NCBI GenBank assembly: GCA_001692895.1
Contig: KV748225.1
Span: forward strand, 744,001 to 808,000
Length of the DNA: 64,000 nt
Reading direction: 5' to 3'
From: Cenococcum geophilum 1.58
Lineage: Eukaryota; Ascomycota; Dothideomycetes; Gloniales; Gloniaceae
The translations under genes were made by a program, and so were the position numbers. Numbering within the stretch: position 1 is the first letter of the stretch; every line of letters starts with the position of its first letter. Positions 2,198-58,640 of the stretch are shown one piece after another. Below the pieces are notes generated by a model. It had not been told where the DNA came from and ran no database searches. It was given only the letters and a program-made list of their open reading frames with translations.

Positions 2198-2261
2198 TAT
2201 CGGGAAAATATTCGCAGGATGAGATTTAAGTAGACTTTGGTTTTCGCGTTTCGCGTAATTG

Positions 2262-2600
2262 ATATGCAATTTGACCAACTTGACACGCAATTAACCAACT
2301 TGACACGTAATTGACCAATTTGATATATCCAAAAGTCAAATAACACGCAGTTAACCTATTTAACAACTTTAAAAGCTAACTATATATTTCTTGACATGCA
2401 GTTGACCTACTTAATAGCTAACTATATATTCCTTAACACGCAGTTAACCTATTTAACAACTTTAAAAGCTAACTATATATTTCTTGACACGCAGTTGACC
2501 TACTTAATAGCTAACTGTATATTCCTTGACACGCAGTTAACCTATTTAATAACTTTAAAAGCTAACTATATATTCCTTGACATGTAATTAAGGTAAAGTT
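2262..2600 (+). repeat. S1 5' array (20-bp and longer units)
   Basis: Tandem variants of gacacgcaattgaccaactt pass into longer units that each contain aactttaaaagctaac and ccttgacacgcagtt. The equivalent arrays follow the left end of S4, S5 and S6 and precede the right end of S3. The small ORF across it is a product of the repeats. Confidence 0.9.
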
Positions 2601-2647
2601 ATATGCTAATTACGTAAATGAATTTTTATACAGTTTTATTACTTAAA

Positions 2648-3286
2648 GGCTCTGCACAAGGCTCTACACGAAGCTCTACACGAAGCTCTACACGAAGCTC
2701 TACACGAAGCTCTACACGAAGCTTTGCACGAGGCTTTACACGAGGCTCTACACAAAGTTCTACACGAATTCGTGCACGAAGCTCTGCACGAAGCTCTACA
2801 CGAAGCTCTACACGAAGCTCTACACGAAGCTCTATGTATAGAGGCTCTGCACGAGGCTCTGCGCGAAGCTCTGCGTACGGAGGCTCTGCACGAAGCTCTG
2901 CACGAAGCTCTGCACGAAGCTCTGCGTACAGAGGCTCTGCACGAAGCTCTATACGAAGCTTTGCACGAAGCTCTGCACGAAGCTCTGCGTACAGAGGCTC
3001 TGCATGAAGCTCTATACGAAGCTCTGCACGAAGCTCTACACGAAGCTCTGCACGAAGCTCTATACGAAGCTCTGCACGAAGCTTTGCACGAAGCTCTACA
3101 CGAAGCTCTGTACGAGGCTCTGCACGAAGCTCTGCACGAAGCTCTACATGAAGCTTTGCACGAAGCTCTGCACAAAGCTCTACACGAAGCTTTGTACGAA
3201 GCTCTGCACGAAGCTCTGCGTATAAAGGCTCTGCATGAGGCTCTGCGCGAAGCTCTGCATATAGAGGCTCTACACGAAGCTCTGCA
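2648..3286 (+). repeat. S1 12-bp minisatellite (gaagctctgcac)n
   Basis: About 53 units of the 12-mer gctctgcacgaa with variants (ctacac, ctgcgtacggag, ctgcgcgaa). Twelve is a multiple of three, so several frames stay open on both strands and give monotonous (ALHE)n, (SSTR)n or (CRAS)n peptides; I do not regard these as genes. Many CA dinucleotides survive here although the host LTR is depleted of them. Confidence 0.95.
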
Positions 3287-3312
3287 TCGGGTCCCCGCTA
3301 TATTCCCGATAG
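3286..3312. other. Hairpin motif between arrays of S1
   Basis: ATCGGG and CCCGAT arms enclose tccccgctatatt. The same motif sits directly after the 12-bp array in S3, S4, S5 and S6 (in S6 the first arm is altered to attggg) and at 8426-8456 in S2. Its arm equals the TIR core TATCGGG. Confidence 0.8.
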
Positions 3313-3402
3313 CCTCTCCTATGTAGCCACCTTATTTTTTTTTATCCATCCTTCCTTCCTTACATTCTCCCTATCTAGGGAGGCACTAGAACGGTAGCCA
3401 GC

Positions 3403-3780
3403 AGAGGACCGTCACCAGAACTAGACGACTGTTGCTAGAACCAGACGACCGTCGCCAGAGCTAGACGACTGTCGCCAGAGCTAGATGACCGTCGCTAGAA
3501 CCAGACGACCGTCGCCGTCGCTAGATGACCGTTATTAGAACCAGATGACCGTCGCTAGAACTAGACGACCGTTACCAGAACCAGACGACCGTCGCCGTCG
3601 CCAGACGACCGTCGCTAGAACTAGACAACCGTTACTAAAACCAGACGACCGTTACTAGAACTAGACGACCGTTGCTAGAGCTAGACGACCGTTTCTAGAG
3701 CTAGACGACCGTCGCTAGAGCTAGACGACTGTCGCCAGAACTAGATAACCGTTGCTAGAACCAGACGACGACCGTTTGAA
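3403..3780 (+). repeat. S1 20-bp minisatellite
   Basis: Tandem variants of gaccgtcgccagaaccagac (20 bp), with G/A and C/T changes of RIP type. Shared with S2 to S6. A second short block of the same unit lies at 4045-4150 after the GGTA tract. Confidence 0.93.
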
Positions 3781-3958
3781 TAACCAGCCAGCAAACACTA
3801 TAAATAATTCAATTAATTAATTAATCGAATTAAACTAGAGCTTTAATATTGGCCTGTCACCGAATTAAATTAAGGCCTTCTAGGGAGGCACCCGTTTAAA
3901 TGTAATTAGGGCCTTTAATTAGGCCGACCCCTCCCCTAAATTAAATTATACACTAATA

Positions 3959-4041
3959 TAGGCAGGTAGGCAGGCAGGTAGGTAGGTAGGTAGGTAGGTA
4001 GGTAGGTAGGTAGGTAGGTAGGTAGGTAGGTAGGCAGGTAG
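3959..4041 (+). repeat. S1 (GGTA)n microsatellite
   Basis: About 20 units of tagg with a few caggcagg variants. The same tract is present in S6 and S2 but absent from S3, S4 and S5, which defines a long and a short architecture. Confidence 0.95.
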
Positions 4042-4204
4042 GAGAGGACCGTCGCTAGAACTAGACCACCGTCGCCAGAGCTAGACGACCGTCGCCAGAG
4101 CTAGACGACCGTTACTAGAACTAGACGACCGTCGCAAGAGCCAGACGACAACGACTAGCCAGCGAACGCTATAAACGATTCGATCGATCGATTGAATTAA
4201 GGTA

Positions 4205-4500
4205 CCATAAATAGGTAGGCATAAGTAGGGAGATGCTAACGGGTAGGCAGATGTAGATAGGTAGGTAGATGCTAACGGGTAGGCAGATATAGATAGGTAG
4301 GTAGATGTAAATAGGTAGGCGATGTAGATAGGTAGGCAATGTAAACAGGTAGGCAATGCAGATAGGTAGGCAATGTAGATAGGTAGGTAATATAGACAGG
4401 TAGGCAATGCAGATAGGTAGGTAATGTAGATAGGTAGGTAATATAGATAGGTAGGTAATATAGATAGGTAGGCGATGCAGGCAGGTTGGTAAGTCAATAG
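4205..4500 (+). repeat. S1 17-18-bp minisatellite
   Basis: Tandem variants of gtaggcaatgcagatag (17 bp), with longer copies containing gtaggcagatgtagatag. The 138-aa ORF on the reverse strand is a by-product of the array. Confidence 0.93.
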
Positions 4501-4839
4501 GTAGATAGGTAGAAGAGAACCATCGCTATATTATATTAAATTATCTAAAATAATATTTATTTTGCTAGTCTTATAAATAGCTTTAAAGTAGCTTTTATTT
4601 ATTTAAAATATGCTATTAGTATAAAAGAGGTAAATACAATTATGGTTGCCAAATGCGCAGATTGCTGGCAGGTTGCGCGTAGGTTGCGTGTAGGTTGCTC
4701 GTAGGCTGCGCGCAGGCTGCGTGTTAAAAAAACACGACATAGGCTAGTCGGTCGAGTTGCTAAATGCCCTTAACTGCGCGCCAATTGCGTCAACCACTAA
4801 CCATTGAGGCTATTGGTAGGGTACTATATTTTGCCGATG
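4501..4839 (+). repeat. S1 conserved 3' domain
   Basis: Low-copy-looking domain of about 330 bp shared by S1, S3, S4, S5 and S6. It begins agaagagaaccatcgctata, includes a short run of ttgcgcgtagg/ctgcgcgcagg units and taaaaaaacacgac, and ends tattttgccgatg. It is the most conserved non-repetitive part of the family and so the best search probe. Confidence 0.9.
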
Positions 4840-5350: not shown

Positions 5351-7984
5351 ATAGCAGACACAAGCAAGCAGATTAATAAAGGTTAAGAGAAATAGAGATA
5401 AGGAGTTAACCTTACGTCTATAACTAACGTTGACAACTATATTAAGTATAAAATCCTTAAATACGGATATTTTAAGCTTATAAATAACGACCTATAGGAG
5501 TAATATAAGGAAGACTTTACGGACTTTACAGAAGATATTCTTAAAGCTTATAACTCTACTGCTATCCGTAACCTACGAACCCTTTTATATTACTAAGGTG
5601 TATGGGTTAAAAAGGATAAATAAGTCACTGTTATACGGTCCTTATATAACACAATATAGGAGGAGAACTAAACGGAATGGACTAAAGAGGAAATCCTAGA
5701 CTAGTTAAAGTTACTAATAAACTCTTTGCTTCTCCTAAACTTAATAGCATCGCTAGCCTTATACTTAACCTACTTAACTAAATTCGTCTTATAAACTTAA
5801 GCGATTTTAGAATTAATCTTATGGGCTAAAGCACACCTAGTACTTAAGTTACGGACCGTAATACCCCCGTAAACTAAAATACGGACTAAAACCCTCCCGT
5901 CGCCTAAGCTATAGATCTATAACCTACCTAAGTTATAGATCTAAAAACCACCTAAGTAAAGACCTATAGTAAGGAGCTAGCTAACCTAGCTAAGCTCTAT
6001 ACCGATAAATCTAAATACAGTAGTGAAAATAATAACTTTAACTTTAAACTATCTTTACGGACCTCTGTTAGAAGGCTGATATTCCTAAATAGGAGTTCAG
6101 CTAAGCCTACTCTACTATACTGCGCGGCCTAGCACTTAACTACTACTATATTAACCTTAAGAATAACCCCCTTGGTGTTCCCTTTAATAAGCTATACGAA
6201 GCCATATATAACTACTTTAAAGGACTAGAATATAAGCGTAATATCCTTACCTAATGGAATGCGACTAAGTTATGGACCGTAATGGACAAGAACACTAAAA
6301 AATCGACTATAGAGTGCCTGCAAATCCTTATTAAAGACCTCCGCCACCTATAGCACAGTTTTAATATTAAGCTTTAAACGGACGACTTCCTATACAATAA
6401 ACTTATTACGGCTTGCTAGGAAATAGAACCTTGTAAATACGCCTATTATAAGCCTGCAGACACCATAGCTGGCCTTATTAACGATTTACGGTCCTCTATT
6501 ACAACGTACGAAGCCTTAAACCCGCTAGGTAGTACTTAAGCCTTTATTACGGACCTATAAAATCCGCAAACTAACTTAGATGCCTACTTTACGGACCGCC
6601 GCTACCGCTAGCAGCACCTGTATTGACTAGGTCCTACCCGTAACCCCTATACTAACTCCCGTATAAAAGCATACCCCTATAGATAAACTAATTAGAGGTG
6701 CTTTATATATGGTAAGAAAGGATGTTAGTCTATAAGGCATACTTAGGAAGAATATAATAAGTCTAAGAAGAGATTTAATAATTGGATTAACTAGTTTATC
6801 TTAAACTATAAAGGAGAGGAAGTAGAGGAGTCCCTTAACGAGTTAATAGAAGCCCTTATAATTAACTTTAACTTAAATACTTAGGAATAGGAGACCTTAA
6901 AGACGTTCCTAACCACTTTTAGACCTTTTACGGACGGCTAAGCCTTTAATATTACGACCGTATTAGCCGACCGCTCCTTTATATACTTAATTATACCTAA
7001 AAACTAGCCTATAAATATACCTATTAAACCCGTTACGGACGTTATAGACCGCGAATAGAACCTATTTGCATATATTACTACAGAACGCTATACCCCTAAA
7101 GAATTTTATAGCGTTATAATTAATACAGGTGCCTCTAAGAAGTCTACTATAGGTTACGGACAGTACCTTATATATAAGACCACCGTAAATAATAATACGG
7201 ATATTAATACTATGCAAACTAGGGCCGTAAACGTCTAATTCGATATTGGCTTAACCGCATTAATTAGATTAGTTAAAGTTAAAACTCTAATTAGCCTAGT
7301 TAACTTCTACATAGTAAAAGCAGATACCCCTTTCTTACTCTACCTTACGGATATAGATAGGTTATAGGTCTACTATAACAACGTTATAGATACCTTAATT
7401 GGCCCCGTAACTGCCTTAGGAAGCAAGTATATTACCCTGCTAATTATACGACGATTTAGACACCCGTTTCTTATATAGGGAGAGACTTTACAGACCTATA
7501 TTTAGGAATCTTTTAACTATAACCCATGCTACCTTACTAGTACTAAAATCTACTAACTATACCGCCGTTTTGGCTACCTATTAGCCGAAAAGCTATATAG
7601 AGTCCTTAAACGCTTTAGATATGACGACATTAATAGGAAAGTAATTAACCACCTAACTAAATACTACTCTTTTTGCTAGAAATACGGACGTTCCCTAGGT
7701 AGATTTAAGTTCACCCTTTATAAGGACCTTAACTTTAACCACTTAGTATACATGGGCATTATATACATTAACGGCAGTCTAGTATTATATATAATTAATA
7801 AGGTAACCCACTATTAAGCCGCCCGTTGGTTGTAAAATATATCTATAAAATATACTTAGGACATTTTACGGACCTGCTAGATTAATATATACCTTAGACC
7901 TCCTAAGTATATTACCCACAACGCTAATAGGAACTTTATTAGCAAGGAATTCTAGCAGTATATATCAGCATTTTGTTGGGGTGC

Positions 7985-8260
7985 CAAGATCCTGGAGGCC
8001 TCCTGACAGGATTTTGACTTTCCTGGAGGTCCTGATCGTCCTGGTAGGCTCCTGGCAGGCTCCTGGCAGGATTTTAATTTTCNTGATCGTCCTGGTTGTC
8101 CTGACAGGCTCCTGGCAGGATCTTTGATTTCCTGATCGTCCTCTTACGGTCCTGTCAGGGTCCTGATAGGAAACTAGTATTTCCTGATCGTTCCTGACAG
8201 GCTCCTAGTAGGATCTTAATTTTCCTGATCGTCCTGTCAGGTTCCTGACAGGATACCCCT
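7985..8260 (+). repeat. S2 left TCCTG minisatellite
   Basis: Imperfect units built from tcctgacaggatttt and tcctgatcgtcctgg. They contain the palindromic words cctgacagg and cctgtcagg. A related array (ggtcctgatggtcctggagg) closes the element at 9665-9850, so both ends of S2 carry the same satellite type. Confidence 0.88.
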
Positions 8261-8261
8261 A

Positions 8262-8400
8262 AGCGACACCCCTCCCAACCCCCCCCCCAAAGCGACACTC
8301 CTATGCACACCCCTTAAGACACCCCCCCAATGCGACACCCTCCCCACTGTGATACCTCCCCCGCAATGGGATACCCTCCCCCCTAATGCGACACGACCCT
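8262..8400 (+). repeat. S2 C-rich repeat
   Basis: Repeats of gcgacaccc(t/c)ccc with runs of up to ten C, followed by alternating gcgcgtgcgcgcg. Strong strand asymmetry makes non-B DNA plausible. Confidence 0.85.
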
Positions 8401-8425
8401 ATGTGCGCGTGCGCGCGACACACAG

Positions 8426-8456
8426 TGCTATCGGGTCCCCGCTATATTCCCGATAG
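8426..8456. other. S2 perfect hairpin GCTATCGGG...CCCGATAGC
   Basis: Nine-base arms around a 13-base loop, followed by ctacacgtgcctctgcc. It is the best preserved copy of the motif shared with S1 and S3 to S6. Confidence 0.85.
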
Positions 8457-8544
8457 CCTACACGTGCCTCTGCCAAGTTACCCCTTTGCAGTCACCCCAT
8501 TCTTTACCCTTCCTTATATCCTCCCTTAGGAGGCACTAGAACGG

Positions 8545-8705
8545 CAGCCAGCAGAGGACCGTCGCCCAAACCAGACGACCGTCGCCAGAAACCAGACGAA
8601 CGTCGCCAGAACCAGACGAACGTCGCCAGAACCAGACGACCGTCGCCAGAACCAGACGACCGTCGCCAGAACAGACGACCGTTACAAGAACTAGACGACA
8701 ACCTT
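8545..8705 (+). repeat. S2 20-bp minisatellite
   Basis: About eight near-perfect units of gaccgtcgccagaaccagac, the same unit as in the other S elements and close to the unmutated consensus. Confidence 0.93.
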
Positions 8706-8931
8706 TCGAACAACCAGCTAGCGGAGACCACGAACGATTTAATTGATCGATTAATCGAATTTGATATTGGCCCATTACCGATCGTATCAAGGCCTCCTTA
8801 GGGAGGCACCCTAGACGACTACCGTTCGAATGTACAGCTAGCGAACGGCCATAGAGAACGACCTGGATCAATTAGAGCCTTCGATCGGGCGACCTCTCCC
8901 CCGAATTAAATTAGATACTGACACAGGCAGG

Positions 8932-9095
8932 CAGGAGGTAGGTAGGGGTAGGTAGGTAGGGTAGGTAGGTAGTAGTGTGGTAGGTAGGGTAGGTAGGTAG
9001 GTAGGTAGGTAGGTAGGTAGGGTAGGTAGGGTAGGTAGGTAGTAGGGTAGGTAGGTAGGTAAGTAGGTAGGTAGGCAGGCAGGTAGGCAGGCAAG
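8932..9095 (+). repeat. S2 (GGTA)n microsatellite
   Basis: Long tagg tract with interruptions. It lies between two copies of a block of roughly 200-300 bp (8745-8930 and 9150-9370) that share gcctcc(t)agggaggcaccc, a tcgatcgggc word and cctctcccccgaatta, so S2 contains an internal duplication of a higher-order unit. Confidence 0.88.
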
Positions 9096-9664
9096 TAGGA
9101 GAGGACCGTCGTCAGAACCAGACGATAATCGTTCGAACGACCAGCCAGCGAACACGATCGATTCGATCGATCGATCGAATCGAACCAGAGCCTCGATATC
9201 AGCCTATTACCGAATCAAATCGAATCAAGGCCTCCTAGGGAGCACCCTAGACGACCAACGTTCAAACGTACAGCCAACGAACGCCCATGGAGAACGATTC
9301 GAATCAATACAATCAATCGCAATCGAATCAAGCAGAGCCTTCGATCGGGCCGACCTCTCCCCCGAATTACAGATACAGACAGGTAGGCATAGACAGGTAG
9401 GCACGACAGGCACAGGCAGGCACAGACAGGTAGGACAGGCAGACACCGCCGATCGACGATTTGGAGCCTCCGCGAGAGGCTCCTCAGTCGATCGCCCGAC
9501 GCCCGAGCGATCGTAGAGCTCCATGACAGACACAGGCGGTAGACAGGAGAGATTGATTTGGATTATTTAGATTATATATAATTAAAATTAATTTTGTATT
9601 TTTTGACTAGCTGCAAATACTGGAGTGTTAATATACCTTATTTTTAAATCTAGAATTTTTATTA

Positions 9665-9850
9665 TTGTCCTGATGGTCCTGATGGTCCTGATGGTCCTGG
9701 AGGTCCTGGAGGTCCTGGAGGTCCTGGTGGTCCTGGTGGTCCGGGCGACCTCCTGACAGGTTCCTGACAGGATGCCGAGTGTGAGTGTCTCCTGGAGCTC
9801 CTGACAGCCCTGACAGGAGCTGTCAGGAGCTGTCAGTACTGTCAGGAGGC
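9665..9850 (+). repeat. S2 right TCCTG minisatellite
   Basis: Nine-base units ggtcctgat, ggtcctgga and ggtcctggt, then agctgtcaggagctgtcag near the right TIR. It mirrors the left-end array. Confidence 0.88.
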
Positions 9851-12212
9851 ACAAACATTTTGCTGATGTACTATAGCCATGGCTATATTAATAAAAGCTG
9901 TTCTAGTTAAGGCGTATTAGTCTGTTAGGCTTATTAAGCGAGCTTATCTAGCTTTATGGAGAGCTTACTAGGTTATTATAGACGAGTATAAGAACATCTA
10001 AAAGGAACTAGCTTTACAGATGGCCGTAAAAGCCGTTAATAATACCGCTAGCCCTAACGGATTAGTACCTACCCTCTTAGTCTACGGAGCCTACCTAAGA
10101 ATAAGTAAACTGGACTCTCCTGCCCTGTCTGTTACGGATCAAGCAGCTATAATACGGAAGGCAATAGCTGAAATAGTTAAATTACGGGCTAAATAAACTG
10201 TTAATAACGCCCTATACTACCGAAACGGATATAATATAACCCTAGTATATAACCTCCCGCTTAATTCTAAAGTCCTCGTGTGGCGTAAAAGCGGTAATTA
10301 GACTAGACCTTACCGTCTACTAACCGTAGAAGACGAGACCTACTATATATAGCTCCCTAGCGGACTAATAAGCTTTAGAAGCACATCCGTAAAACCCTAT
10401 TTTCGGTCCGAAAATACCCATAACGTCAAGCTAGACGAACTAGAAGCACCCGCCAAATTAGACGAACTAGAAGCACCCGCTAAATTAGATAAACTAAAAG
10501 CACCCTTGCCTACCCCAGAGGTCCCCTAGAAACCTACTAAACCTACTAAACCTACCGTAAAGCGTGGCCGAGGACGCCCCCGTAAGAACCCCGTAACGGA
10601 GAATTACCTAACCTCCGCAGGTATATCCGCAAAGCAATCTCCGCCTATAGATATATTAGTTCTAGTATAGGAAACCCCTTTTACGGACTTACGACGTAAA
10701 GAGATTAATAGACTACTTAAAAAGGGCGTCTTTGCGGTTATAATAGAGAGAGAGGTTCTATAAGGCGTCCGTATATTTAACTCGCGCTTTATTAACGAAA
10801 TTAAGCACCCTAGTACTAATAAAGCCTTTAAAAAGTTAAGGCTTATTATATAAGCTTATAACGACTAGGGAAAGAACTTAGTCCTTATATAATCGCCTAC
10901 GATCTAATAAGTCAGCTAACGGATTATACTTGTACTTACGCCCGGCCTATAGTAAAGTAAACCTATAGCTCTTTATCTACGGGACATCTTATAAGCCTAC
11001 GTATAATCCAATACCTACCTAAGTAGGGACATCTTTATACGACCACCGCTCGAGCTTAATTTACAACTAGGAATAATTTTATAGGTCGTAAAACCACTTT
11101 ACGAAGTGCTAGAAGCTAGAAACCACTAGTTTAAGATATATCACCAGCATTACGTCCGTAAACTTAAGATAGAGCAGTTAACCTATAACCCTTGCCTCCT
11201 ATACACCCTATTAAACGGCCTTAGTATTATTAGGCTTCAAATAGATAATACTCTCTTTTTAGCGAACTAGACTTTTACGGATATAAAGGAAACTAAACTA
11301 TAAGAAGCTAAGTTCCTGGTAAAGCCGTAAGAGTAGTTAACTAAGTAGACTCCAATTAAGTTTAATAAAGGCTTAATTATATAAAAGGGTAACTTAATCT
11401 AGCTAACCTAGGAACGCTAAGCTTAAAACCTAAAGCTTATTACAGTAAAGCCTATAGACCTTACTAGTTCCTACGGAGAGACCCGTAAGACTATAAATAC
11501 GAAGGACTAATACGCTGTATAGCGTGTAAGAGGCGCCTATATTGCCATAGTCTGCTAACCTAAATCTGCCTATAACTTATTCTTTGCGGCCCAGGCAGTA
11601 AATCCGTAAGAAGAAAATATTAAGCAGCTTAATAAGCGCATTTAATAGCAGATTAACAATGTAATAAGAGGACTTACTTTTGTACCGCTAGACCTAAACT
11701 CTATTAGCATAATAGTATTTATAAACGCCTTCTTTACCAATAATAGGGACCTATTATTGCAAATTGGCTTTATAATTATACTTACGGACTATAATTAAGA
11801 CGTAAATATACTATATTGGTCTTTAATTAAATGCAAATAAGTAACCCGCAGTGTACTAGCTTCTAAACTATATGTACTAGCCTATGGCTTTAATATAGCA
11901 GCCGTAATCAAATTAACGATCTAAAAGATCCTATAATTGAAGCAGCTACCCCTGGTTTTATGCACTAATTTAAAGTCCCTCTACGACTGCCTAGTTAAAC
12001 TAGGTACGACATAAGAGAAGAGGCTTATAGTTAACCTAATGTGCTTATATTAGGCCTATAAACAACGTAAAATTACGGAGGTTAAATAGATTAGCAGCGA
12101 AGACAACCTAGTAGACGCTATAACTAAGGCAAAGCCGTGTTAAGCTCTAAAAACCCTAATTAATATAAATAAGCTTAACCTAAAGGTTATAGAATGGGTA
12201 GAACGAGACTAA

Positions 12213-12462: not shown

Positions 12463-12733
12463 TGTATAATTACAGCACCTGCTATACTAACCGCGTGCTT
12501 ACGCGTTCGGTACATTAACCACGCGTTTACGCGTTCGGTGCACTAACTACCCACTTACGCGTCTAGTGCACTCCTAAAGCACTAACTAATTAAGGGGGAG
12601 GCGCATTAGTATATAGACTACGTAGTCTGCTTTATACAATTAACAGTTACCACTATCCTAAAGAGCATACAATACTATACGTATTTCGTGCCCCGGGATA
12701 TAACTTAATTGTATTATTAAGTTGATATAAATA
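12463..12733 (+). repeat. Copia-1 3' LTR, 271 bp
   Basis: Intact LTR from tgtataattacagcacctg to gatataaata (RIP-altered aca). It contains three diverged 28-bp repeats with acgcgttcgg at 12488-12571. Followed by the target copy gacac. Confidence 0.95.
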
Positions 12734-25671: not shown

Positions 25672-27104
25672 CAGGCAGTTCTTTCTTTTGTGGCCTAAAA
25701 CCAGAATATATACAAATTATACTAGATAGTACTGGGCAGTATCAGGCAGATTGCTATAGACTGCCGCATATTGCCGTATATTGCCTAGGACTAGGTAGGC
25801 TTTCCTCCTCTCTTTACCTATTCTTCTATTTATACCTTAAGGTAGTTAGTATCTAAGAACTTTTCTAATGCCTTATTAGGGTTAGACTTAGTTATAGCAT
25901 CTACTAGGTTATCTTAGCCGTTAATCTAGCGGATCTCTAGTAGTTCTCTTTACTCGTACAATTAGCAAAGGGCTATAATATCAATTATTAGACGCTTCTT
26001 TTTAGTGGTTCTAAGCTTAATAAGGCATTCCTAGAGTAAGTAAAAGTCGGTACAGACAATGGTTGGAATTTAGAAAAGACTAAGTTAATCTATAATTATC
26101 TTAAGAGTAGTATTAATAACAATCGCTATATCCACTCCTCCTACTATACTATAAATCTCTAATACTAGGACGCTCCTAGTTACTCGCTTACTCTTAGTTA
26201 AGCTATAATAGATTAAGTTTCCCTTAATCTGGAATTCCTCCTCTATTGTCTTAGTTTTATTTATAATAATAAATTTATATCCAATCTAGGAACTAAAATC
26301 TTTATTATTTATAAATAATCCATTAATAAAGACAAAGAGCTTTGCTGCAGATAAGTTAAGGGCAATATAGTTAATACCTTAATCTATATGCTTCATCTAC
26401 CATATAAGTCTCTTATTTAAAGCGGTAATATTAGCTTCGGTTGGATTCTGGTGTTAGGCAGCGACTAAGAGGTTAAATGCGGCCTCTAGTTAACAAATAG
26501 TTGCAATATAAGCTCCACAAGCCTATTGCTCTCTATAGTCATTTTAAAAGTTAGAAGACTTAGCATTTATAGGCTTAAGCTTCTTTACCTATTCCTTTTA
26601 ACACAACTAGATGGTATCCTTATATTATATTAGTATATATCTATTAAAGATTAATAGGGTTTCCGGTGCTAGGGCTTTCTTAAGCTTTATAAGGAATTTA
26701 GCTTTACTAAGCTTATTATCCTCTAAAACCGAGAATTCTTCTAATGCTAAAATAAGTGTGTTATTAGTTTACATTCCTATAAGACCAAATACCTCCTTAG
26801 TTGTAATAATATCGGCAAAATATGGTACCCTACTAATGGCCTTAATGGTTGGTGGTTGACGCAATTGGCGCGCAGTTGAGGGCATTTGGCAACTCGACCG
26901 ACTAGCCTATATCGTGTTTTTTTGACACGCAACCTGCGCGAAACCTGCCAGCAATCTACGCATTTGGCAACTACAATTATATTTACCTCTTTTATACTAA
27001 TAGCATATTTTAAATAAATAAAAGCTACTTTAAGGCTATTTATAAGGCTAGCAAAATAAATATTATTTTAGATAATTTAATATAATATAGCAATGGTTCT
27101 CTTC

Positions 27105-27515
27105 TACCTATCTACCTATTAACTTACCTACCTACCTATCTACCTACCTACCTACATCGCCTACCTGTCTATATTGCCTACCTATCTGCATTGCCTACCT
27201 ATCTACATTACCTACCTGTCTACATCGCCTACCTGTCTATATCGCCTACCTATCTACATCGCCTACCTGTTTACATTGCCTACCTATCTATATCGCCTAC
27301 CTATCTGCATTACCTACCTGTCTGCATCGCCTACCTATCTGCATTACCTACCTATTTGCATCTGCCTACCTATCTATATCTGCCTACCCGTCAGCATTTA
27401 CTTACCTGTCTGCATCTGCTTGCCTATCTGCATCTGATTACCAGTCTGCATCTGCCTACCTATCAGCATCTGCCTACCCGTTAGCATCTCCCTGTTTGTG
27501 CCTACCTGTCTGTGC
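27105..27515 (-). repeat. S3 17-18-bp minisatellite
   Basis: Reverse-oriented copies of the gtaggcaatgcagatag unit (seen here as ctacctatctgcattgc). The two overlapping ORFs on + rich in Tyr, Leu, Pro and Thr are repeat artefacts. Confidence 0.93.
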
Positions 27516-27564
27516 TGCCTTGATTCGATCGATTGATTGAATCGTTTATAGTGTTCGCTGGCTA

Positions 27565-27830: not shown

Positions 27831-27907
27831 CTAGTGCCTCCCTAGGTAGGGAGGATGTAAGGAAGGATGGATGGATAAAAAAAATAAGGTGGCTATATAG
27901 GAGAGGC

Positions 27908-28835: not shown

Positions 28836-28895
28836 TAAGGTAAAGCTATATGCCAATTACGCAATCTTATATAATCTTATATAGTTTTATTACTT

Positions 28896-31285: not shown

Positions 31286-34200
31286 TGAAACGCGAACACC
31301 AAAGTTAACTTGAATCTTATCCTGCGAATATTTTCCCGATAAAGGAAGTAAGGGTTGTAGGTGGATATAGTTATAGATAGCTTCTCCTTATAATGCTTAT
31401 AGTATATAGCCCACCAATAAGTTCCAGCTTTAGGAATCCTATACAATGGCTTTAGAACAACTATAATGGTATTTAGTGGATATATATAAATAATTTCCTT
31501 TAGAAGATTTGTAAAAATCAATCATTAAATAAAGGTTGTTAATTAGGTATAGGCTTAGGTAACATTACATAGCTATATCTAGATCTTCTTGTCTAAAAGT
31601 TAAAATAAAGATAGCGCTAGTGCCACAATAACTTATTAGCTTACTCTTTGGATAGTCGGGGATTGCGTAAAAATCACTTCCTTTCCATTGTCGTTATACG
31701 CTTGGATAACGAGTCTGGATTTTTTATATAGGGTATCCGTAGCTTTACCCTTAACTTTATAAACGATTCTTAAGTTAAAAATCCTAATACTAGCATGCTT
31801 AATAAGATCCCATTAAATAAAATTAAAGACTCCTTATCCAGTTAAGCTATCAACTTCCTATTTTGTTAAAGCTTTAAATAGTGCTCTAGGAGTAGTAATT
31901 TTACCCTCTTTCTGTAGCTTTAACGCAAGTACTATATTAGCTTACTCCTTGCTCGTTATAAAAGCCATTAGGGTTATTTAGGTATCAATCTCCTCAATAG
32001 TAGTAAGGAAGGCTTAGTTGAAGTTATCTTTATTAGTAAAATAGTAGTGGGTGCTTTAACGGGTAACAATTTCTTTATTAGATACGTCTTTATTACGTAA
32101 TCCCTTTAGTTATCCTTAACTACGTTATATAATTGGTTCTAGGTCAACTAGTTTAGTTTCCTTATTTAGTTCTTTTTCCTTATCAGATCAGTTAACTTAG
32201 TCCTCCTATTCTAGAACATCTAGTATTTTCTCTTTTATATAATATGGTTTAACAACAGTTAATTAGAAGTTGGTTAGTCCATATAGCATATTAATTATAT
32301 ATATTTTGCCGTTAATTACTAACAGTTTATACGGTCCATTCTAACCATCCTTTTTACACCATATACGTACTTCTGAGAGAATTAGTAAACTCAGCGTAGA
32401 TATAGTATTTAGGCCGTTTCTTATAGCAAGCGCATCTTTAACCTGGCGCTCTGCTTAGAGACAATAAACTTCCTTAGTAGCTGCACGGATTGCTTTAGCT
32501 CTTTTAGTAACAGATAGCGATAGAGCATCCATTTTAGTCATTTGTGGATATACCCCAAAGACTAAAAGAGTGGGAATAATTCCATCTAGTCCAGCTGAAT
32601 TGTTAATGGCCTTTACAGCCATCTGCAAACTTATTTCTTTATTAACCTATTTATTTGCAAGCTTTTCTTAGATAATTTTATAAGCTTATTATAATAGAGT
32701 ATAATATCTCTTAACCTTTCCTATACTATTATAAGCTTCTATAGGAACTTCCTTAATCTCAATTATCATTAACTTAGCGTATTATCTAAATTCAGTTAAT
32801 AAGAAGTTCCTTCCTATGTCGTAAACTAAGTAATCCGGTGGTCCTTGGTAAGTGTTAATTTAGTATATTTACAGTATATCCCAAGCATTCTTTGCAGACA
32901 TATCCCTTAAAAACTTAGCAGCTTAGAATAATATTAAAGAATCCACTACTTATAGAACTGGCTTACTATTTAAGTATATAACATTAATAATAACTTTATA
33001 ATTAAATTCATAGTTATCCCTTAAGGTAAACTTAAATCTGCTAGGCGATTTCGTATACATCTGGTAATGGTGACAGTATTTTATAAGGTATTTAATAGCC
33101 TCAAAATTTACTTTATATCCAGCTTATTAAAGAACTTTAGTTAGTTATTAAACTAATAGATAACTAAAGCGTTTATACAATTAACGTAATTTAGCTTTAG
33201 TTAGGTAACTCTAGACAATACTATATTCTAGTTAGTAGAGCAACATCCATAAATAGCCCCATTTTCGTATAACTAGGACAATCTTATTACCTTAGATTAG
33301 AATATTTTAAAGATTATCTAGCTTAACACCCATTTTATCTATATCTTAGATACAAAATAAGAATAGTATATTTGCTAGGATAACGTAGAAGGTAATAATG
33401 CCTAGCGGGGTAGAAACTTAGATAGTGCCTTAGGACAATATAGTGCCTTTACTAAATCTAATCTTATAAGCTCCAGCTATAGTAGTGTCAAGTCAGACAC
33501 TAGTGTTAAGCTTTTGCAATGCCTGGAATTAAGGTTAGCCAGCAGTTAATACACCTATAGCTCCGCTATCTAGCATAATGCCCTAAAAGACCTCTAACAA
33601 ATATCGGTCCTTAAACGTAAATACTAAGGTCTCTAGCAACTATAGTGGTGGTACCTTAAAGATATTTTCGCTAGTAACCGCGTGCTAGGTAGACTGGTCG
33701 TTTAAGATAGCTACGGTTTAGGTACCATTAACTTCTCTAAACTCCGTGAAATACGTATTATATTCCTCCTTAATCTCTATACTTATCATTATATAGTCTA
33801 CTTCTCCTACGTTATTATTTAGAAGATCTTCTACTCCTTCCCATATAGTAAGGAAGCTATAATACTGGGCTAATATAACTTCCTGCTCTCCTGCATATTA
33901 GGCATATTATCGATACTTAGTGTATACTTATTATCTATCTTCTGCTGTATACTTACTTAACTAGCATCCAGGTTTATTATAGACGTAGCATCGCTTATAA
34001 CGGGGTAGGTAGTAGTTACAATATCCGCTATGGTAGTTTCCTCTACTTCGGTATCCTCTATATGGGCGTAATCCACGCCAGGAGCCTCTTTAGGGTCCTC
34101 TATACGTACAGTCGGTCCAATTCTAGTCATACTGCTTAGTATTACTTTAATTATCTTGCTTCTAAGGAATAGTCTGCATATAGTATTATCATATCTCTTA

Positions 34201-47251: not shown

Positions 47252-47739
47252 CTAGCAACTCTTCTTTTATAGTTGCCATCTATATATAAATACTGCTTAA
47301 CTATTATAACAAATATAAACCCTCCTTGCTTACTATTGCCATTATAGTATAAGTCTCACTATCCCAAAATTTGCCTCTTAACACGCGGTGCTTTCTTGCT
47401 AAGGAGTTATAGGTAGATATCGTGTTAGGGCCGTTAGGGCCATTAAGGCGCTAGCTATAAGCGAGCTAATAGCAATTTTTTATCCTAGGGATAGAAAATC
47501 TTAATTGGCTAGTTTAAGTTAGGGTCTACAGAATCTAACCAATTAGATAACTTTAACCGCTAGTTAAAGTTCCTAGATATCTTAAGGCCTTATATAACTA
47601 AGATATTTTTAGGGACTCCCTTTTTACCTAACCTTTAACTCGTATATGTAGAGTATTTATGTTAATAAATATCTCTATATCGGGAAAATATTCGCAGGAT
47701 GAGATTCAAGTAGACTTTAGTTTTCGCGTTTCGCGTAAT

Positions 47740-48080
47740 TAACATGCAATTTAACTAACTTAACACGTAATTAACTAACTTAACACGCAGTTAACCTACT
47801 TAACATGCAATTTAACCAACTTGACACGCAGTTAACCTACTTAATATGCAATTTAACTAACTTAACACGCAGTTAACCTACTTAACATGCAATTTAACTA
47901 ACTTAATACGCAGTTAACCTACTTAACATGCAATTTAACTAACTTAACACGCAGTTAACCTACTTAATATATAATTTAACTAACTTAACACGCAGTTGAC
48001 CTACTTAATATATAATTTAACTAACTTAATATACAGTTAACCTACTTTAACAACTTTAAAAGCTAACTGGATATTTCTTG
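47740..48080 (+). repeat. S5 5' array
   Basis: Regular alternation of aacatgcaatttaactaact and taacacgcagttaacctact units (about 40 bp per pair), ending with aactttaaaagctaactgg. Confidence 0.9.
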
Positions 48081-48182
48081 ACGTGCGATTAAGGTAAAGT
48101 TATATACTATATATTTAACTATTATTATATAATCTTATACAATCTTATATAATCTCATATAATCTTATAGTCTTATTACTTG

Positions 48183-48525
48183 GAGGGCTCTATATGAGGC
48201 TCTACACAAAGCTTTACACGAAGCTCTGCGTACAGAGGCTCTGCACGAAGCTTGCGTATAGAGGCTCTGTACAAAGCTCTGTACAAAGCTTCGTATAAGG
48301 CTCTATTACAAGGCTCTATACGAAGCTCTGCGTACAGAGGCTCTGCACGAAGCTCTGCACGAAGCTCTGCACGAGGGTCTGCGCGAGGGGTCTGCGCGAG
48401 GGTCTGCGCGAAGCTCTGCGTATAGAGGCTCTGCACGAGGCTCTGCGAGAAGCTCTACGTACAGAGGCTCTGCACGAGGCTCTGCGCGAAGCTCTGCGTA
48501 TAGAGGCTCTACATGAAGCTCTGTA
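48183..48525 (+). repeat. S5 12-bp minisatellite
   Basis: gctctgcacgaa units with frequent gctctgcgtacagag variants; more irregular than in S1 or S4. Confidence 0.92.
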
Positions 48526-48654
48526 TCGGGTCCCGCTATATTCCCGATAGCCTCTACACGTGCCTCTACCCTATGTAGCCACCTTATTTTTTACCCTTCT
48601 TCCTTCTTTATAATCCTCCCTAACCTAGGGAGGCACCAGAACGGCAAGCCAGCA

Positions 48655-49505
48655 GAGGACCGTTGCTAGAACTAGAACGACCGTCGCCAGAACCAGATGA
48701 CCGTGACCGTTACCAGAACCAGACGACCATCGCCAGCCAGACGACCGTTACCAGAAACCAGACGACCGTTGCCAGAGCCAGACGATCGTCGCCAGAACCA
48801 GACGACCGTCGCCAGCCAGACGCGACCGTTACCAGAACCAGACGACTGTCGCCAGAACCAGACGACCGTCGCCAGCCAGACGACCGTTACCAGAACCAGA
48901 CGACCGTTGCCAGAGCCAGACGAACCGTCGCTAGAACCAGACGACTGTCACCAGAACCAGACGAACCGTCGCCAGAACCAGACGACCGTCGCCAGAACCA
49001 GACGACCGTCGCCAGCCAGGACGACCGTTACCAGAACCAGACGACCGTTGCCAGAGCCAGACGATCGTCGCCAGAACAGACGACCGTCGCCAGCCAGACG
49101 ACCGTTACCAGAACCAGACGAACTGTCGCCAGAACCAGACGACCGTCGCCAGCCAGACGACCGTTACCAGAACCAGACGACCGTTGCCAGAGCCAGGCGG
49201 ATCGTCGCCAGAACCAGACGACCGTCGCCAGCCAGACGACCGTTACCAGAACCAGACGACCGTCGCCAGCCAGACGACCGTTACCAAGAACCAGACGACT
49301 GTCGCCAGAACCAGACGACCGTTACCAGAACCAGACGACGCGTCGCCAGAACCAGACGACCGTCCGCCAGCCAGAACGAACCGTTACCAAACAGACGACC
49401 GTCGCCAGAACCAGACGACCGTTACCAGAAACTAGACGACCGTTGCCAGAGCCCAGACGACCGTCGCCAGAACCAGACAACCCGTCGCCAGAGCAGACGA
49501 CAACG
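48655..49505 (+). repeat. S5 20-bp minisatellite
   Basis: The longest 20-bp array (about 850 bp), with units gaccgtcgccagaaccagac and shortened gccagccagacgaccgtta forms. The 296-, 276- and 83-aa Arg/Pro/Thr-rich ORFs on + lie entirely in this array. The unit length is not a multiple of three, so one ORF cycles through all three unit frames; I do not call these genes. Confidence 0.95.
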
Positions 49506-49554
49506 ACTAGCACCGCCAACACTATAAACGATTCGATCGATCGATCGAATTAAG

Positions 49555-49870
49555 GTAGCCACAGACAGGGTAGCATAAACAGGTAGAATGCTAATGGGTA
49601 GGTAGATATAGATGGTAGGTAAATGCAGAATAGGTAAGCAGATATAGAATAGGTAGTAAATATAGATAGGTAAGTAGATGCAGATAGGCAGTAGATATAG
49701 ATAGGTAGGTAGATGCTAACGGTAGGCAGATATAGATAGTAGGGTAAATACAGTATAAGTAGATATAAATAGGTAGGTAGATAATAGACAGGTAAGCAAG
49801 ATATAGATAGGTAGGCGATATAAATAGGTAGGCGATGCAGGCAGGTAGGTAAGTTAATAGGTAGATAGGT
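49555..49870 (+). repeat. S5 17-18-bp minisatellite
   Basis: Degenerate gtaggtagatatagatag units with single-base indels. Confidence 0.88.
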
Positions 49871-51092
49871 AGAAGAGAACCATCGCTATATTATATTAAA
49901 TTATCTAAAATAATAATATTTATTTTGCTAGCCTTATAAATAGCTTTAAAATAGCTTTTATTTATTTAAAATATATTATTAGTATAAAAGAGGTAAATAT
50001 AATTATAATTACTAAATGCGCAGATTACTAGCAGGTTGCGCGTAGGTTGCGCGCAGGCTGCGCGCAGGCTATGTGTTAAAAAAACACGACATAGGCTAGT
50101 CGGTCGAGTTGCTAAATGCCCTTAACTGCGCGCTAATTGCGTCAACCACCAACCATTGAGGCCATTGAAAGGGTACTATATTTTGCCGATATAGTACCTT
50201 ATTTAGGTTCGCCTTCATTATTATATCTACTGGGTTATCTTAACCATTAATCCATTAAATCTTAAAGAGTTTTTAATATTCGTAGGATTAATAAAGTGCT
50301 ATAATGTCGATTATAAGGCGCTTCTTCTTTATAGTACTAAGCTTAACTAAACACTTATAGAGGGAGTATAAGTCGGTACATACAATTGTAGGGATAATAG
50401 AAAGTTTAAGTTAATCTATAATTATCTTTAGGGTAGTTCCAATTATAATTGCTATATTAACTCCGCTAACTATTTTATATATCTCTAACGCCAGAACGCT
50501 TTAAGTGACGCGTTTACTCTTAATTAAGCTCTAATGGATAAGGTTGCCGTAGATTATAAAGTCGTTTTCTTTAGTAGATTTGTTTACAATAATAATCTTA
50601 TATCCCAACTAGGAGCTAAAATCTTTATTATTTATAAACAATCTATTAATAAATATAAAGAGCTTAGCGGTANGAAGACTAATAGGCATATAGAGTAGTC
50701 CCTAATTAAGATAGTTTATTTGCCAGGAAAGACGTTTATTTAGGGCAAGAACGTTATCCTTAGTTAGTTCTTAGTATTAGGCGGCAACAGAGAGATTAAA
50801 TAAAGCCTTAGATTAATAGATAGAAGCAATATAAGCTCTATAAGCGCGTTGCTCCACATATCCTTACTTTAGGGAATTAACGTTAATAACGTCAATTTTC
50901 TTATCTTAACCCTTCTAGCGTAAAGCAATAAAATCCTCGTTTAGGGAGAGGATGTATCTATTAAAAAGTAATAGTGTTATTAAATTAAGCTTTTCCTTTA
51001 GCTTTGCTATAAGATTTACCCTTACTAACTTATCTTCTTTAAGGGCTAAGAATCGGTCGTCTCCTAAGATAATTATATCATTAGTTTATATA

Positions 51093-52186
51093 GTAGTAAT
51101 TCTTTAATTAACGTCTAATATGGATCCTACTGGCCCACGCAGACTACTCCGTCATAGGGGGAAAACTTATAATTTACATGAAGAAAAACCCTGCAGTTAG
51201 GGAAAGGAAAAACCCTATGAGCCACCTTAGTAGGATGAAAAACCCCGAATTGCTATGTTTGCACGTAGCAGCGGCCCTACGGGCCTACAGCACGTCCTCC
51301 TCCTTAGATGTTTTAAACTCCTTGGGAACCACTGCTTCCTTCTCTAGCTTATTAAAGCTAGGGTTCACTACGTCCCAGCTAGGCCCTACTAATTAATTAC
51401 TGTGTCTTATTATCTTATTCTATATCTTACCTATTCCCTATATACTATCTCTTATAGACTATTACCATATACGCCTTGCCTCCCCCCCCCTAGAGCTATT
51501 AAAGGCGTAAGGGGGATTCATCCGTTCTAACTACCGTAATACTGATAAGCGAGCGGGATATATTGTGTATTTGGGTATCTTTTATACCTAGGCCCCAGCT
51601 AGGCCCTTTCTAAGGGCACTACTCCGTTAAAAGGAGATAGGGAAAACCGTAGGTCGTAATCCAGGCTGCTAGGTAGTATTCGGTAGTTAAAAACGGCGAG
51701 TGACCGCATGCTCCGCGGGCGATTGCCCTAGAGGTTAAGAGGGGCCGTATATTTGCTCATTCGTTTACTCACTCCACGTTCGCTCGTTCGTTAATATAAG
51801 AGGTTGTTAATACTTTCTGTTGGGGGTTAGGGGATGCTGTTAAATGCTATACATCCATGAAGCTCTGCACGAAGCTCTGCGTATAAAGGCTCTGCACGAG
51901 GCTCTGCGCGAAGCTCTGCGTATAGAGGCTCTACATGTTAGATCGTATAGGTGCCTTAGATAGGAGAATAATGTAGTAGTCGTCGTATTATAGAGGGCCA
52001 ACAGTAGTGGTTTTCAAGATCTCACCATCCGAAAATTTTTCACCACCGCCCTTAATGCCCACAACCACCACCAGGTCCTGTCTACACGCTATGCGACGTC
52101 TCTACGTTGGCTCTGGATCTAAACTTCGAAGACTAGGTTCGTAGCCGTCACCGCGTATAGGTGCAGAGTCCGATTTCGACGGCTTT
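51093..52186 (-). mobile_element. LINE-derived 1.1-kb insert in Copia-4 RT
   Basis: Flanked by a 13-bp direct repeat attagtttatata (51080-51092 and 52187-52199), a target duplication of LINE type. In reverse orientation the left part matches the 3' end of the LINE at 16160-19830: gcagtggttcccaaggag (51319-51336), then ggagtagtctgcgtgggcc and gacgttaat near 51110-51150. The remaining sequence is C/G-rich and hardly RIP-affected. No LINE ORF is recognisable, and the 72-aa ORF at 51178-51396 shows no known motif. It looks like an internally deleted, non-autonomous LINE derivative. Confidence 0.75.
51857..51937 (+). repeat. Fragment of the S-family 12-bp minisatellite inside the LINE-derived insert
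   Basis: About 80 bp of gaagctctgcacgaagctct-type units, including the gctctgcgtataaagg and gctctgcgcgaagctctgcg variants typical of the right end of S arrays. No TIR, hairpin or TA duplication accompanies it. Confidence 0.9.
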
Positions 52187-55100: not shown

Positions 55101-55850
55101 CCTTAGTATACGCTAATAACTTAATTACGTAGGCTGAAATCCTCTTAATATAAATCGGATAAACTATACTAAATTGTCTAAAGTTAATTAAAGAGCTTTT
55201 AAAGATAATTAAGCCGAGGGACACCTGGGTTTATAGCAATAATCCTTAGAAAGGTAGTCTCTCTCTATTCTAATATATACTGCTACTTATTCTCTTTTAT
55301 TTTAAAGTGGCATCTTAATATATATATTATGCGGTTAAAATTATATCCTTTTTCTGCCAAATGATTATAATAGAAGGTACTAGCTTAGCCCTTAAGTATA
55401 ACGGAATAGGCGTTATGGTATTAATTAGACTCTATTCCTACCTTCTAGTAATAGTTATAGAAGATACGTAGTTTTAAATTAAGAATATTATATAATTCCC
55501 CGCTAAACTTCTTCTCTTAATCGCAGGATGAGATTTAAGTAGACTTTGGTTTCGCGTTTCGCGTAATTGATATGTAATTTAACTAACTCGACACGCAATT
55601 GACTACTTAACACGCAATTAACTAATTGATATATCTAAAGTTAACGCAGTTACCTATTTAATAACTTTAAAAGCTAACTATATATTTCTTAACACGTAGT
55701 TAACCTACTTAATAGCTAACTGTATTTCCTTAAAATATAGTTAACCTATTTACAACTTTAAAAGCTAACTATATATTCCTTAATATGTAATTAAGGTAAA
55801 GTTATATGCTAATTACGCAAATGAATTTTTACATAGTTTTATTACTTAAA

Positions 55851-56343
55851 GGCTCTGCATAAGGCTCTACACAAAGCTCTACACGAAGCTCTATACGAAG
55901 CTCTACACGAAGCTCTACACGAAGCTCTACACGAAGCTCTACACGAAGCTCTACATGAAGCTCTACACGAAGCTTACGTACAGAGGCTCTGCACGAGGCT
56001 CTGCGCGAAGCTCTGCGTACGGAGGCTCTGCACGAAGCTCTGCACGAAGCTCTGCACGAAGCTCTGCACGAAGCTCTGCACGAAGCTCTGCACGAAGCTC
56101 TACACGAAGCTCTGCACGAAGCTCTGCACGAAGCTCTGCACGAAGCTCTGCACGAAGCTCTGCGTACAGAGGCTCTGCATGAGGCTCTGCACGAAGCTCT
56201 ACACGAAGCTCTGCACGAAGCTCTGCACGAAGCTTTACACGAAGCTCTGCATGAAGCTCTGCACGAAGCTCTGCGTATAAAGGCTCTGCACGAGGCTCTG
56301 CGCGAAGCTCTGCGTACGGAGGCTCTACACGAAGCTCTGCATT
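55851..56343 (+). repeat. S6 12-bp minisatellite
   Basis: About 41 units of gctctacacgaa and gctctgcacgaa; the left half has mostly the RIP-altered ctacac form, the right half the ctgcac form. Confidence 0.93.
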
Positions 56344-56456
56344 GGGTCCCCGCTATATTCCCGATAGCCTCTCCTATGTAGCCACCTTATTTTTTTTTTA
56401 TCTATCCTTCCTTCCTTATATCCTCCCTACCTAGGGAGGCACCAGAACGGCAGCCA

Positions 56457-56825
56457 GTAGAGGACCGTTACCAGAACTAGACGACCGTTGCTAGAACCAG
56501 ACGACCGTTGCCAGAGCCAGACGACTGTCGCCAGAGCTAGATGACCGTCGCTAGAACTAGACGACCGTCGCCAGAGCCAGACGACCGTCGTTAGAACTAG
56601 ACGACCGTCGCCAGAACTAGACGACTGTTACTAGAACTAGACGACCGTCGCCGTCGCTAGACGACCGTCGCTAGAACTAGACAACCGTTACTAAAACTAG
56701 ACGACCGTTACTAGAACTAGACGACCGTTGCCAGAGCCAGACGACCGTTTTTAGAGCTAGACGACTATCGCCAGAGCTAGACGACTGTCGCTAGAACTAG
56801 ACAACCGTTACTAGAACTAGATAAT
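56457..56825 (+). repeat. S6 20-bp minisatellite
   Basis: gaccgtcgccagaactagac units with RIP-type variants; it is followed by the same unique block as in S1 (3781-3958). Confidence 0.93.
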
Positions 56826-57239
56826 AACCGTTTAAATAACCAGCTAGTAAACACCACGAATGATTTAATTAATTAATTAATTAAATTAAACTAGAGCTTT
56901 AATATTGGCCTATTACTAAATTAAATTAAGGCCTCCTAGGGAGGCACCCGTTTAAATATAATCAGGGCCTTTAATCAGGCCAACCCCTCCCCTAAATTAA
57001 ATTATACACTAACACAGGCAGGTAGGCAGGTAGGTAGGTAGGTAGGTAGGTAAGTAGGTAGGCAGGCAGGTAGGAGAGGACCGTCACTAGAACCAGACCA
57101 CCGTCGCCAGAGCTAAACGACCGTCGCTAGAGCTAGACAACCGTTACTAGAACCAGACGACCGTCGCAAGAGCCAGATAACAACGACTAGCCAGCGAACG
57201 CTATAAACGATTTAATCGATTGATTAAATTAAGGTACCA

Positions 57240-57535
57240 CAAACAGGTAGGTATAAGTAGGGAGATGCTAACGGGTAGGCAGATATAGATAGGTAGGCAA
57301 ATACTAACGGGTAGGTAGATATAGACAGGTAGGTAGATATAAACAGGTAGGCAATGTAGATAGGTAGGCAATATAGACAGGTAGGTAATATAGATAGGTA
57401 GGTAATATAAATAGGTAGGTAATGTAGATAGGTAGGCAATATAGATAGGTAGGTAATATAGATAGGTAGGCAATATAGATAGGTAGGTAATATAAACAGG
57501 TAGGCGATGTAGGCAGGTTGGTAAGTTAATAAGTA
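57240..57535 (+). repeat. S6 17-18-bp minisatellite
   Basis: gtaggcaatatagatag and gtaggtaatatagataggta units. Reverse ORFs are artefacts. Confidence 0.93.
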
Positions 57536-58640
57536 AATAGGTAGAAGAGAACCATCGCTATATTATATTAAATTATCTAAAATAATATTTATTTTGCTAG
57601 TCTTATAAATAGCTTTAAAGTAGCTTTTATTTATTTAAAATATACTATTAGTATAAAAAAGGTAAATATAATTATGGTTACCAAATGCGTAGATTGCTGG
57701 CAGGTTGCGCGCAGGTTGCGTGCAGGTTGCTCGCAGGCTGCGTGTCAAAAAAACACGACATAGGCTAGTCGGTCGAGTTGCTAAATGCCCTCAACTGCGC
57801 GCCAATTGCGTCAACTACCAACCATTAAGGCCATTGGTAGGGTACTATATTTTGCCGATATAAGTAGAGCTTCACAAGCTCTATAAGCAATTTTAAACTA
57901 CCTCCGATTTAAGATTAAGGTAGAGAAGGTAGGAGTTATATTATAGGCTATAGTGGGGACGTAGGTCTAGTCGGTGGAGTCCAAAGGTCATTAAATCGCG
58001 AAGTAATGGGATCCTGTGCCTGCTCTTATTAGGGTATAGTATCTAACGTTAAGGTTATAGGTTAAATTGGATATAGAGGAGTTAAAGGCGGAGGTAGGTT
58101 CGTCTTTAGAGGTATATTACTTAGGTTCCATCGTAAGTTAAGCTTCCTTATAGTGCGTAGTTGGTGCTTAATCTCTTATAGAGTCCATTCGTACTCTTTT
58201 TTTACGTTAATAACCTGCTCCTAAATGTTGTCTCTAATAGTACCCCCGTCCTTAGGGATAAATACTCTATTCTCTTAAAGGAAGTTACGGAAGTCCTATA
58301 TAATATCCTTATTTACAGGGGCCTATATTTCCTTTATCCATCTAATAAAGTCCTCCTTTATATATTCCTATAGCGCGGTATTATTATATTCACTATCCTT
58401 ATAATATACTATACGGTATAATAAAAATCTATTTAAGTCTTATTTATTAGCGTTTACAAGGTCAATTATAGCTTTATTCTATATCTTTAGGTTAATATCT
58501 TCCTTATACTTCTTTGGGTAGGTTAACGCTATAGTAGGTAAGAAGATCGACGGGGTGTCGTACGTTAAAGGTAGGTAGGATTTTCGGTTTTGTAGGATCT
58601 CATAGGTTTGCTGTTAAGAGGTAGGCAATTTAAGATATTA

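Follow-up and report, generated by a model that had tools for sequence, protein, structure and literature searches.

How does DNA that consists almost wholly of minisatellites, and that encodes no transposase, come to lie as discrete elements throughout a fungal genome? The question is raised by a 64,000-nucleotide stretch of Cenococcum geophilum 1.58 (contig KV748225.1, positions 744,001 to 808,000; the window), in which a first-pass annotation had delimited six elements, S1 to S6, and assigned them to a non-autonomous, Tc1/mariner-like family. We confirm that the six elements are real. Their class must be corrected from Tc1/mariner to Plavaka type, and the array cassette that they carry is their unusual part. 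Our reading, to which we give a probability of about 0.9, is that the S elements are non-autonomous cut-and-paste elements for which a ~20-kb Plavaka-type element supplied the transposase in trans.

Genome-wide searches covered the 177.19-Mb, 162-contig assembly G000, whose contigs are given as C-numbers (the window is C50:744001-808000); L-numbers denote genome loci that were read. For each pattern search, positions come from the first 100 matches listed. S elements begin with CATCGGGAAAATATTCGCAGGATGAG and end, read as the reverse complement, with CATCGGCAAAATATGGTACCC. The 14-bp terminal repeat has 667 genome matches, versus 16 for its reversed control; the 42-bp 5′ end has 389 versus 0, the 21-bp 3′ end 545 versus 6, and the internal hairpin 813 near-copies versus 4. 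Since these counts lie far above those of the controls, a chance origin of the S features is excluded. A 350-bp piece from the 3′ end of S1 (itself matched at 100%) finds the best 40 of 775 candidates at 93-97% identity. The top 20 of these 40 scored matches, L031-L050, were read with their flanks and form a biased sample; five more stretches were chosen by the spacing of their terminal repeats.

Both ends could be paired by script in 26 elements (4 in the window, 17 of the 20 loci, and 5 others), and 24 of these have a matching 2-bp target duplication. Seven different dinucleotides are represented: TA in 13, TT and AA in 3 each, CA in 2, and CT, GG, and GA in 1 each. Empty sites were sought with joined flanks in the DNA examined, that is, the window and the loci read. 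They were found at 83-93% identity for S1, S2, L032, L035, L036, L038, L048, L053, and L055, at 81-82% for L045, and also for S4. The empty junction holds a single dinucleotide, CT, at L032, GG at L045, GA at L048, and TT at L053 (two copies); it reads TA at L036, L038, and L055. Three sites that are TA when occupied read CA (S1, L035) or TG (S2) when empty. The candidates for S3 are weak (72-75%), whereas that for L046 and a second one for S1 are gapped at the junction. Insertion had been claimed from restored host sequence for S1, S2, S4, and S5; the claim holds for the first three, and no empty site of S5 was found in the DNA examined. Insertion of S is precise and duplicates 2 bp, whose sequence varies from site to site. 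The genome search, the duplications, and the empty sites together support the proposal of a dispersed, non-autonomous family with terminal inverted repeats that carries minisatellite blocks.

Further evidence on class comes from a partner. The annotation had suggested looking for a full-length relative with a transposase and the same ends; such a relative exists, and it encodes a Plavaka transposase domain rather than a Tc1/mariner one. A search of the genome with the Plavaka profile PF18759 gave 123 matches above the curated cut-off (123 scored of 266 candidates; best E 2.1e-66), some of which are two pieces of one copy. When Plavaka positions were compared with 169 listed terminal repeats, an S 3′-type repeat stood upstream of the domain, in the same orientation, at five places: −16,980, −16,958, −16,947, −16,930, and −16,879 bp. 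On the other side, among 100 of the 389 5′-type repeats, an inward-facing repeat lies +2,915 to +3,096 bp from the domain at eight places. The terminus adjoining one Plavaka match (L059) aligns with S 5′ ends for ~345 bp at 74-85% identity and then diverges, with no 12-bp array and no hairpin beyond. Its inner 110-bp tail, in the best 40 of 133 candidates scored, lies 2,458-2,756 bp downstream of a Plavaka domain, in the same orientation, in 34 cases, the source included. Finally, C8:1407723-1427678 has both S-type ends, 19,956 bp apart and flanked TA/TA. Because the ends face inward at fixed distances and the C8 copy has both of them, the ~20-kb Plavaka-domain element has S ends. This giant and S have the terminal repeats of both ends in common, and also the subterminal array of the 5′ end. 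Two pairs of inward 5′-type S ends, at C2:5702606-5722748 and C3:2322632-2341200, are 20.1 and 18.6 kb apart and have no listed Plavaka match.

A second shared feature is the motif CGCARTT. It occurs in all 10 elements examined (of the 26): 3-9 times within the 400 bp at the 5′ end, nowhere in the middle, and once or twice within the 340 bp at the 3′ end; every copy faces inward and none outward. The 5′ end of the giant has 3 copies, and shuffled ends give about 0.04-0.05. Plant CACTA/En-Spm elements have subterminal repeats of short motifs that bind transposase, and their non-autonomous derivatives are moved in trans. By analogy, the motif repeats at both ends of S would fit a binding-site role. 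S differs from CACTA/En-Spm, which duplicates 3 bp, in its 2-bp duplication, its other termini, and its body of unrelated minisatellites. We take the 5′ array to be a group of putative transposase-binding repeats. In the mechanism that we propose, the ~20-kb element, a member of the CMCT clade (CACTA/EnSpm-Mirage-Chapaev-Transib and relatives), would supply transposase in trans. This enzyme would recognize the CATCGG terminal repeats plus the inward-facing copies of CGCARTT close to the ends, and the DNA between recognized ends, whatever its content, would travel as a passenger. The 12-, 20-, and 17-bp arrays would be such passengers: their copy number is variable and their order fixed, and they are also present in at least two further families, whose ends are of other, CATCAG, types.

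Several observations weigh against this reading. Other listed 3′-type repeats lie −24.3, −23.1, −9.7, and +13.0 kb from a Plavaka domain, and two further 5′-type repeats +10.9 and +14.9 kb from one; of the 40 tail matches, 1 is at 10.5 kb and 5 lie more than 30 kb from any Plavaka match. With the first 100 places per pattern listed, the test covered a single end in most giants, and the 17-kb left part, the 3′ subterminal region, and the transposase of the giant are known from positions and profile matches only. The flanks of 2 of the 26 paired elements disagree (L044, CA/TA; L046, CA/AT), and L037, L040, and L049 yielded no end pair. CGCARTT was picked after inspection. In two relatives without arrays, L054 and L056, the 5′ end has 0 and 1 copies and the 3′ end 3 each, one of them outward in L056. 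S and giant termini, CATCGG..CCGATG, differ at the fifth base from the CATCA..TGATG of PlavakaB; those of S2 and of a third family described below are CATCAG. Lastly, no intact transposase is known in the genome, all 123 Plavaka matches having stop codons. Since every domain match is broken, the Plavaka/S system is probably no longer active in this genome.

What the elements carry is not confined to S. Ends of the S2 type (CATCAGCA) have 263 genome matches versus 35 in the control and form 17 exact pairs 1,627-2,006 bp apart. The third family, read at L038:4348-7089, has ends CATCAGGAAATTTTTTTT.GGGC, a TT duplication, a 12-bp array, the hairpin, and a 20-bp array; its end pattern gives 476 matches versus 1 in the control, with 23 exact pairs 1,785-3,455 bp apart. 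A hairpin-centered array cassette is thus carried by no fewer than three families, which differ in their CATC(G/A)G ends. One S2-type element, L044:2075-3800, has a 12-bp array, unlike the S2 of the window.

This sharing bears on the alternative that survives best. The arrays might be dispersed satellites that spread mainly by other means, S, S2, and the third type being secondary captures. We consider this improbable, although it deserves to be weighed. In its favor, 30 of the 66 exact hairpins on C1-C5 are near none of the three end types, and a 12-bp array of ~5 copies stands alone at window positions 51859-51919, without flanking terminal repeats. Yet 36 of the 66 lie within 3 kb of an end type (S 24, S2 9, third 5), whereas random placement gives a mean of 1.7 and a maximum of 6 in 500 trials, and this is with second- and third-type lists of exact matches only, while repeat-induced point mutation (RIP) hits the terminal C. 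Moreover, the module order is fixed, and ~363 kb examined held no long free-standing array. The annotation had named mainly free-standing arrays as an outcome that would speak against a transposon family; on these figures that holds for part of the hairpins only.

The tail-anchored 20-kb spans of 13 presumed giants on C1-C8 contain no exact hairpin, though mutated hairpins would escape; two of these spans are without a Plavaka match and one has it 10.5 kb off. Because several families carry the cassette and none of these giants has an exact hairpin, the cassette is probably a passenger common to several families and not a piece of the giant. It may have passed between families by nested insertion plus internal deletion, or by template switching in gap repair, which is a guess. 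When 100 listed third-family ends were compared with 64 typed positions of Plavaka, a single pair lay less than 25 kb apart, which lends no support to an autonomous partner of that family. An S2-type end at C30:1719135-1719153 is found 6.6 kb downstream of one Plavaka match; this candidate S2 partner does not exceed chance expectation. A speculative extension, which we regard as rather unlikely, is that the 12-bp array, hairpin, 20-bp array, and AGGT run form a selected, exchangeable module useful to at least three families. If so, the cassette may, for instance, spare the ends by attracting RIP or heterochromatin to the arrays, or it may bind a host factor. The fixed order, the many near-copies of the hairpin, the lack of exact ones in the 13 giants, and a weaker RIP depletion in S bodies are all consistent with this idea. 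A profile search of the genome for a TET/JBP gene (PF12851) gave no match, but 14 controls were equally silent, so the result is uninformative.

The remaining alternatives fare far worse. S ends near Plavaka domains could be S copies nested at a preferred site of an unrelated Plavaka element. S elements do nest in other repeats, and the way in which the interior of the giant is known leaves some room for this. However, the domain is bracketed by the two end types, each pointing inward at a fixed distance; the similarity of the giant's 5′ sequence to S stops after ~345 bp, with neither array nor hairpin; none of the 13 presumed giants has an exact hairpin; and the whole 20-kb unit is flanked TA/TA. 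We therefore hold nesting to be very unlikely.

Tc1/mariner membership, with obligate TA targets, draws on the 13 TA duplications and on the short inverted repeats at the element ends. The annotation had described the duplication as mostly TA, which is correct as far as those 13 of 24 go; the other 11 are not TA, and S3 itself has TT. Clean insertion at CT, GG, GA, and TT is documented by empty sites, three sites now flanked by TA have CA or TG when empty, and the partner with common ends encodes a Plavaka domain, so that the Tc1/mariner assignment is abandoned as highly implausible. Helitrons are not known to produce a target duplication, and S elements do not show such duplication-free insertion. 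Helentron/HINE-like rolling-circle elements, which in the available parts of the oyster study (PMC7492417) have a similar plan, with conserved ends around satellite-like tandem arrays common to families, could merely resemble inverted-repeat elements, but the 2-bp duplications, exact terminal inverted repeats, and empty sites of S, together with a partner that is a Plavaka element, leave this the least credible explanation of all.

We turn to the window elements themselves, whose internal arrays were detected by Tandem Repeats Finder. The annotated coordinates and ends of S1-S5 are exact to the base. S1 (2198-4839, plus strand) is complete at 2,642 bp, with a TA duplication; the empty copy, at window 12503-12731, has CA. 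Its 5′ terminal repeat (2198-2223) differs from unmutated copies in that the first C is T. There follow the 5′ subterminal array with inward CGCARTT motifs (2274-2584), common to the giant's 5′ end at L059; the 12-bp array of unit GCTCTGCACGAA (2649-3286); the hairpin module, ATCGGG...CCCGAT (3287-3313); 20-bp arrays (3403-4149) in two blocks, 3403-3769 and 4043-4149, with a 4-bp TAGG run at 3959-4042 in between; the 17-bp array (4242-4477); and the 3′ domain (4500-4839), with 11-bp repeats at 4655-4721, two inward CGCARTT motifs, and the 3′ terminal repeat.

S3 lies on the minus strand with a TT duplication and is split into a 3′ part (26810-28445) and a 5′ part (31021-31341) by S4 (28446-31020, plus strand), a complete element of 2,575 bp inserted at TA within the S3 5′ array. 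S5 (47678-50191, plus strand) is complete at 2,514 bp, with a TA duplication. S6 (55521-57860, plus strand) has its 3′ end as claimed and lacks the outermost ~15 bp of the 5′ terminal repeat; its near-empty, element-free site, L057:3367-3670, has 4 extra bases at the junction. S2 (7963-9868, plus strand; TA duplication, TG in two empty copies) has the hairpin and 20-bp module as in S. Because it is without a 12-bp array and has different ends, we assign it to a separate family, where it had been counted with S.

The module order given by the annotation, 5′ array, 12-bp array, hairpin, 20-bp array, 17-bp array, and 3′ domain, is kept in S copies wherever the modules were detected. In the module scan, the hairpin fell under the match threshold in S5, L038, and L055, stray 17-bp matches occurred inside the AGGT stretch, and L053 had an additional reversed 12-bp array. 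Array sizes differ among copies; the paired 12-bp unit, for example, has 1 to 41 matches. The window elements contain no transposase frame, as had been stated: the six open reading frames of ≥150 aa inside them are array translations (introns not considered).

Widely spaced pairs of terminal repeats were also read as candidates for an autonomous element. L051, at 7.1 kb, proved to be an S element whose 3′ domain has received a different element of ~4.8 kb (L051:2320-7130), in which one segment is repeated, at 2322 and at 2742. L052 and L053 likewise are S elements that contain nested arrays or insertions. None of the three has a transposase, nor do the array-free L054 and L056 encode one. L054:189-703 is a 515-bp relative with S-type ends and TA/TA flanks, belonging to a group with 48 matches; for the best 40 of its 80 candidates scored, comparison by eye placed no Plavaka match close by. 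L056:5315-7959, of 2.6 kb, has the same ends and a complex, nonrepetitive interior without a long frame.

S copies have decayed by RIP-like mutation. In RIP, C-to-T changes are concentrated at CpA. Against the majority of 34 aligned 3′ domains, C has become T at 150 of 602 CpA, 32 of 569 CpG, 4 of 467 CpT, and 0 of 408 CpC, and G has become A at 82 of 690 TpG. This is the signature of RIP, and by itself it points to a filamentous ascomycete as the likely host. RIP explains why the terminal C of S is often T. It also implies that the TA preference is inflated, since three TA duplications read CA or TG in their empty copies, as conversion of CpA to TpA would give. With values of 0.66-0.89, S bodies show weaker RIP depletion than the rest of the window (0.49), a difference that younger age or array composition could also explain.

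It is useful to contrast S with systems already described. In the parts of Kojima (2025, PMC12730594) available to us, PlavakaB elements have 2- or 3-bp duplications and CATCA..TGATG termini, and the wider CMCT clade has CA..TG termini and 2- to 5-bp duplications. S resembles PlavakaB (PMC12730594) in its variable 2-bp duplications, its termini starting CATC, and its partner with the PF18759 domain. It differs in having CATCGG rather than CATCA, with CATCAG in S2 and the third family. Published PlavakaB elements encode transposase and come from Agaricomycotina, whereas S is gene-less and resides in a genome showing RIP; the same parts of that paper describe no non-autonomous or array-filled Plavaka. 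Nor did the listed titles and abstract openings from the open-licence PMC literature yield an array-filled Plavaka.

The nearest published analogues in plan, judged from the accessible portions of both papers, are the oyster HINEs and Tetris. Like S, Cg_HINE of the Pacific oyster (PMC7492417) is non-autonomous, with conserved flanks around satellite-like arrays and modules common to families, so that the statement that no described family has this design was too strong in general. Cg_HINE is a Helentron with one, rarely two, array types, whereas S has cut-and-paste ends and several ordered array types. The Tetris foldback element of Drosophila virilis (PMC4079207) is likewise a DNA transposon with internal tandem repeats that has only its outer ends in common with another element. 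Its 220-bp repeats lie in long inverted repeats and seed satellites; S has 12-, 20-, and 17-bp repeats and a nonpalindromic body.

These results have several implications. First, they link a high-copy, gene-less, array-filled family to a source of transposase, a 20-kb Plavaka element, in a RIP genome. Second, where a genome has undergone RIP, a "TA" duplication may have begun as CA or TG and mutated since, so TA flanks by themselves are no ground for classing an element as Tc1/mariner. Finally, cut-and-paste elements of this clade can spread entire minisatellite blocks, and one such block can travel in several families with different ends.

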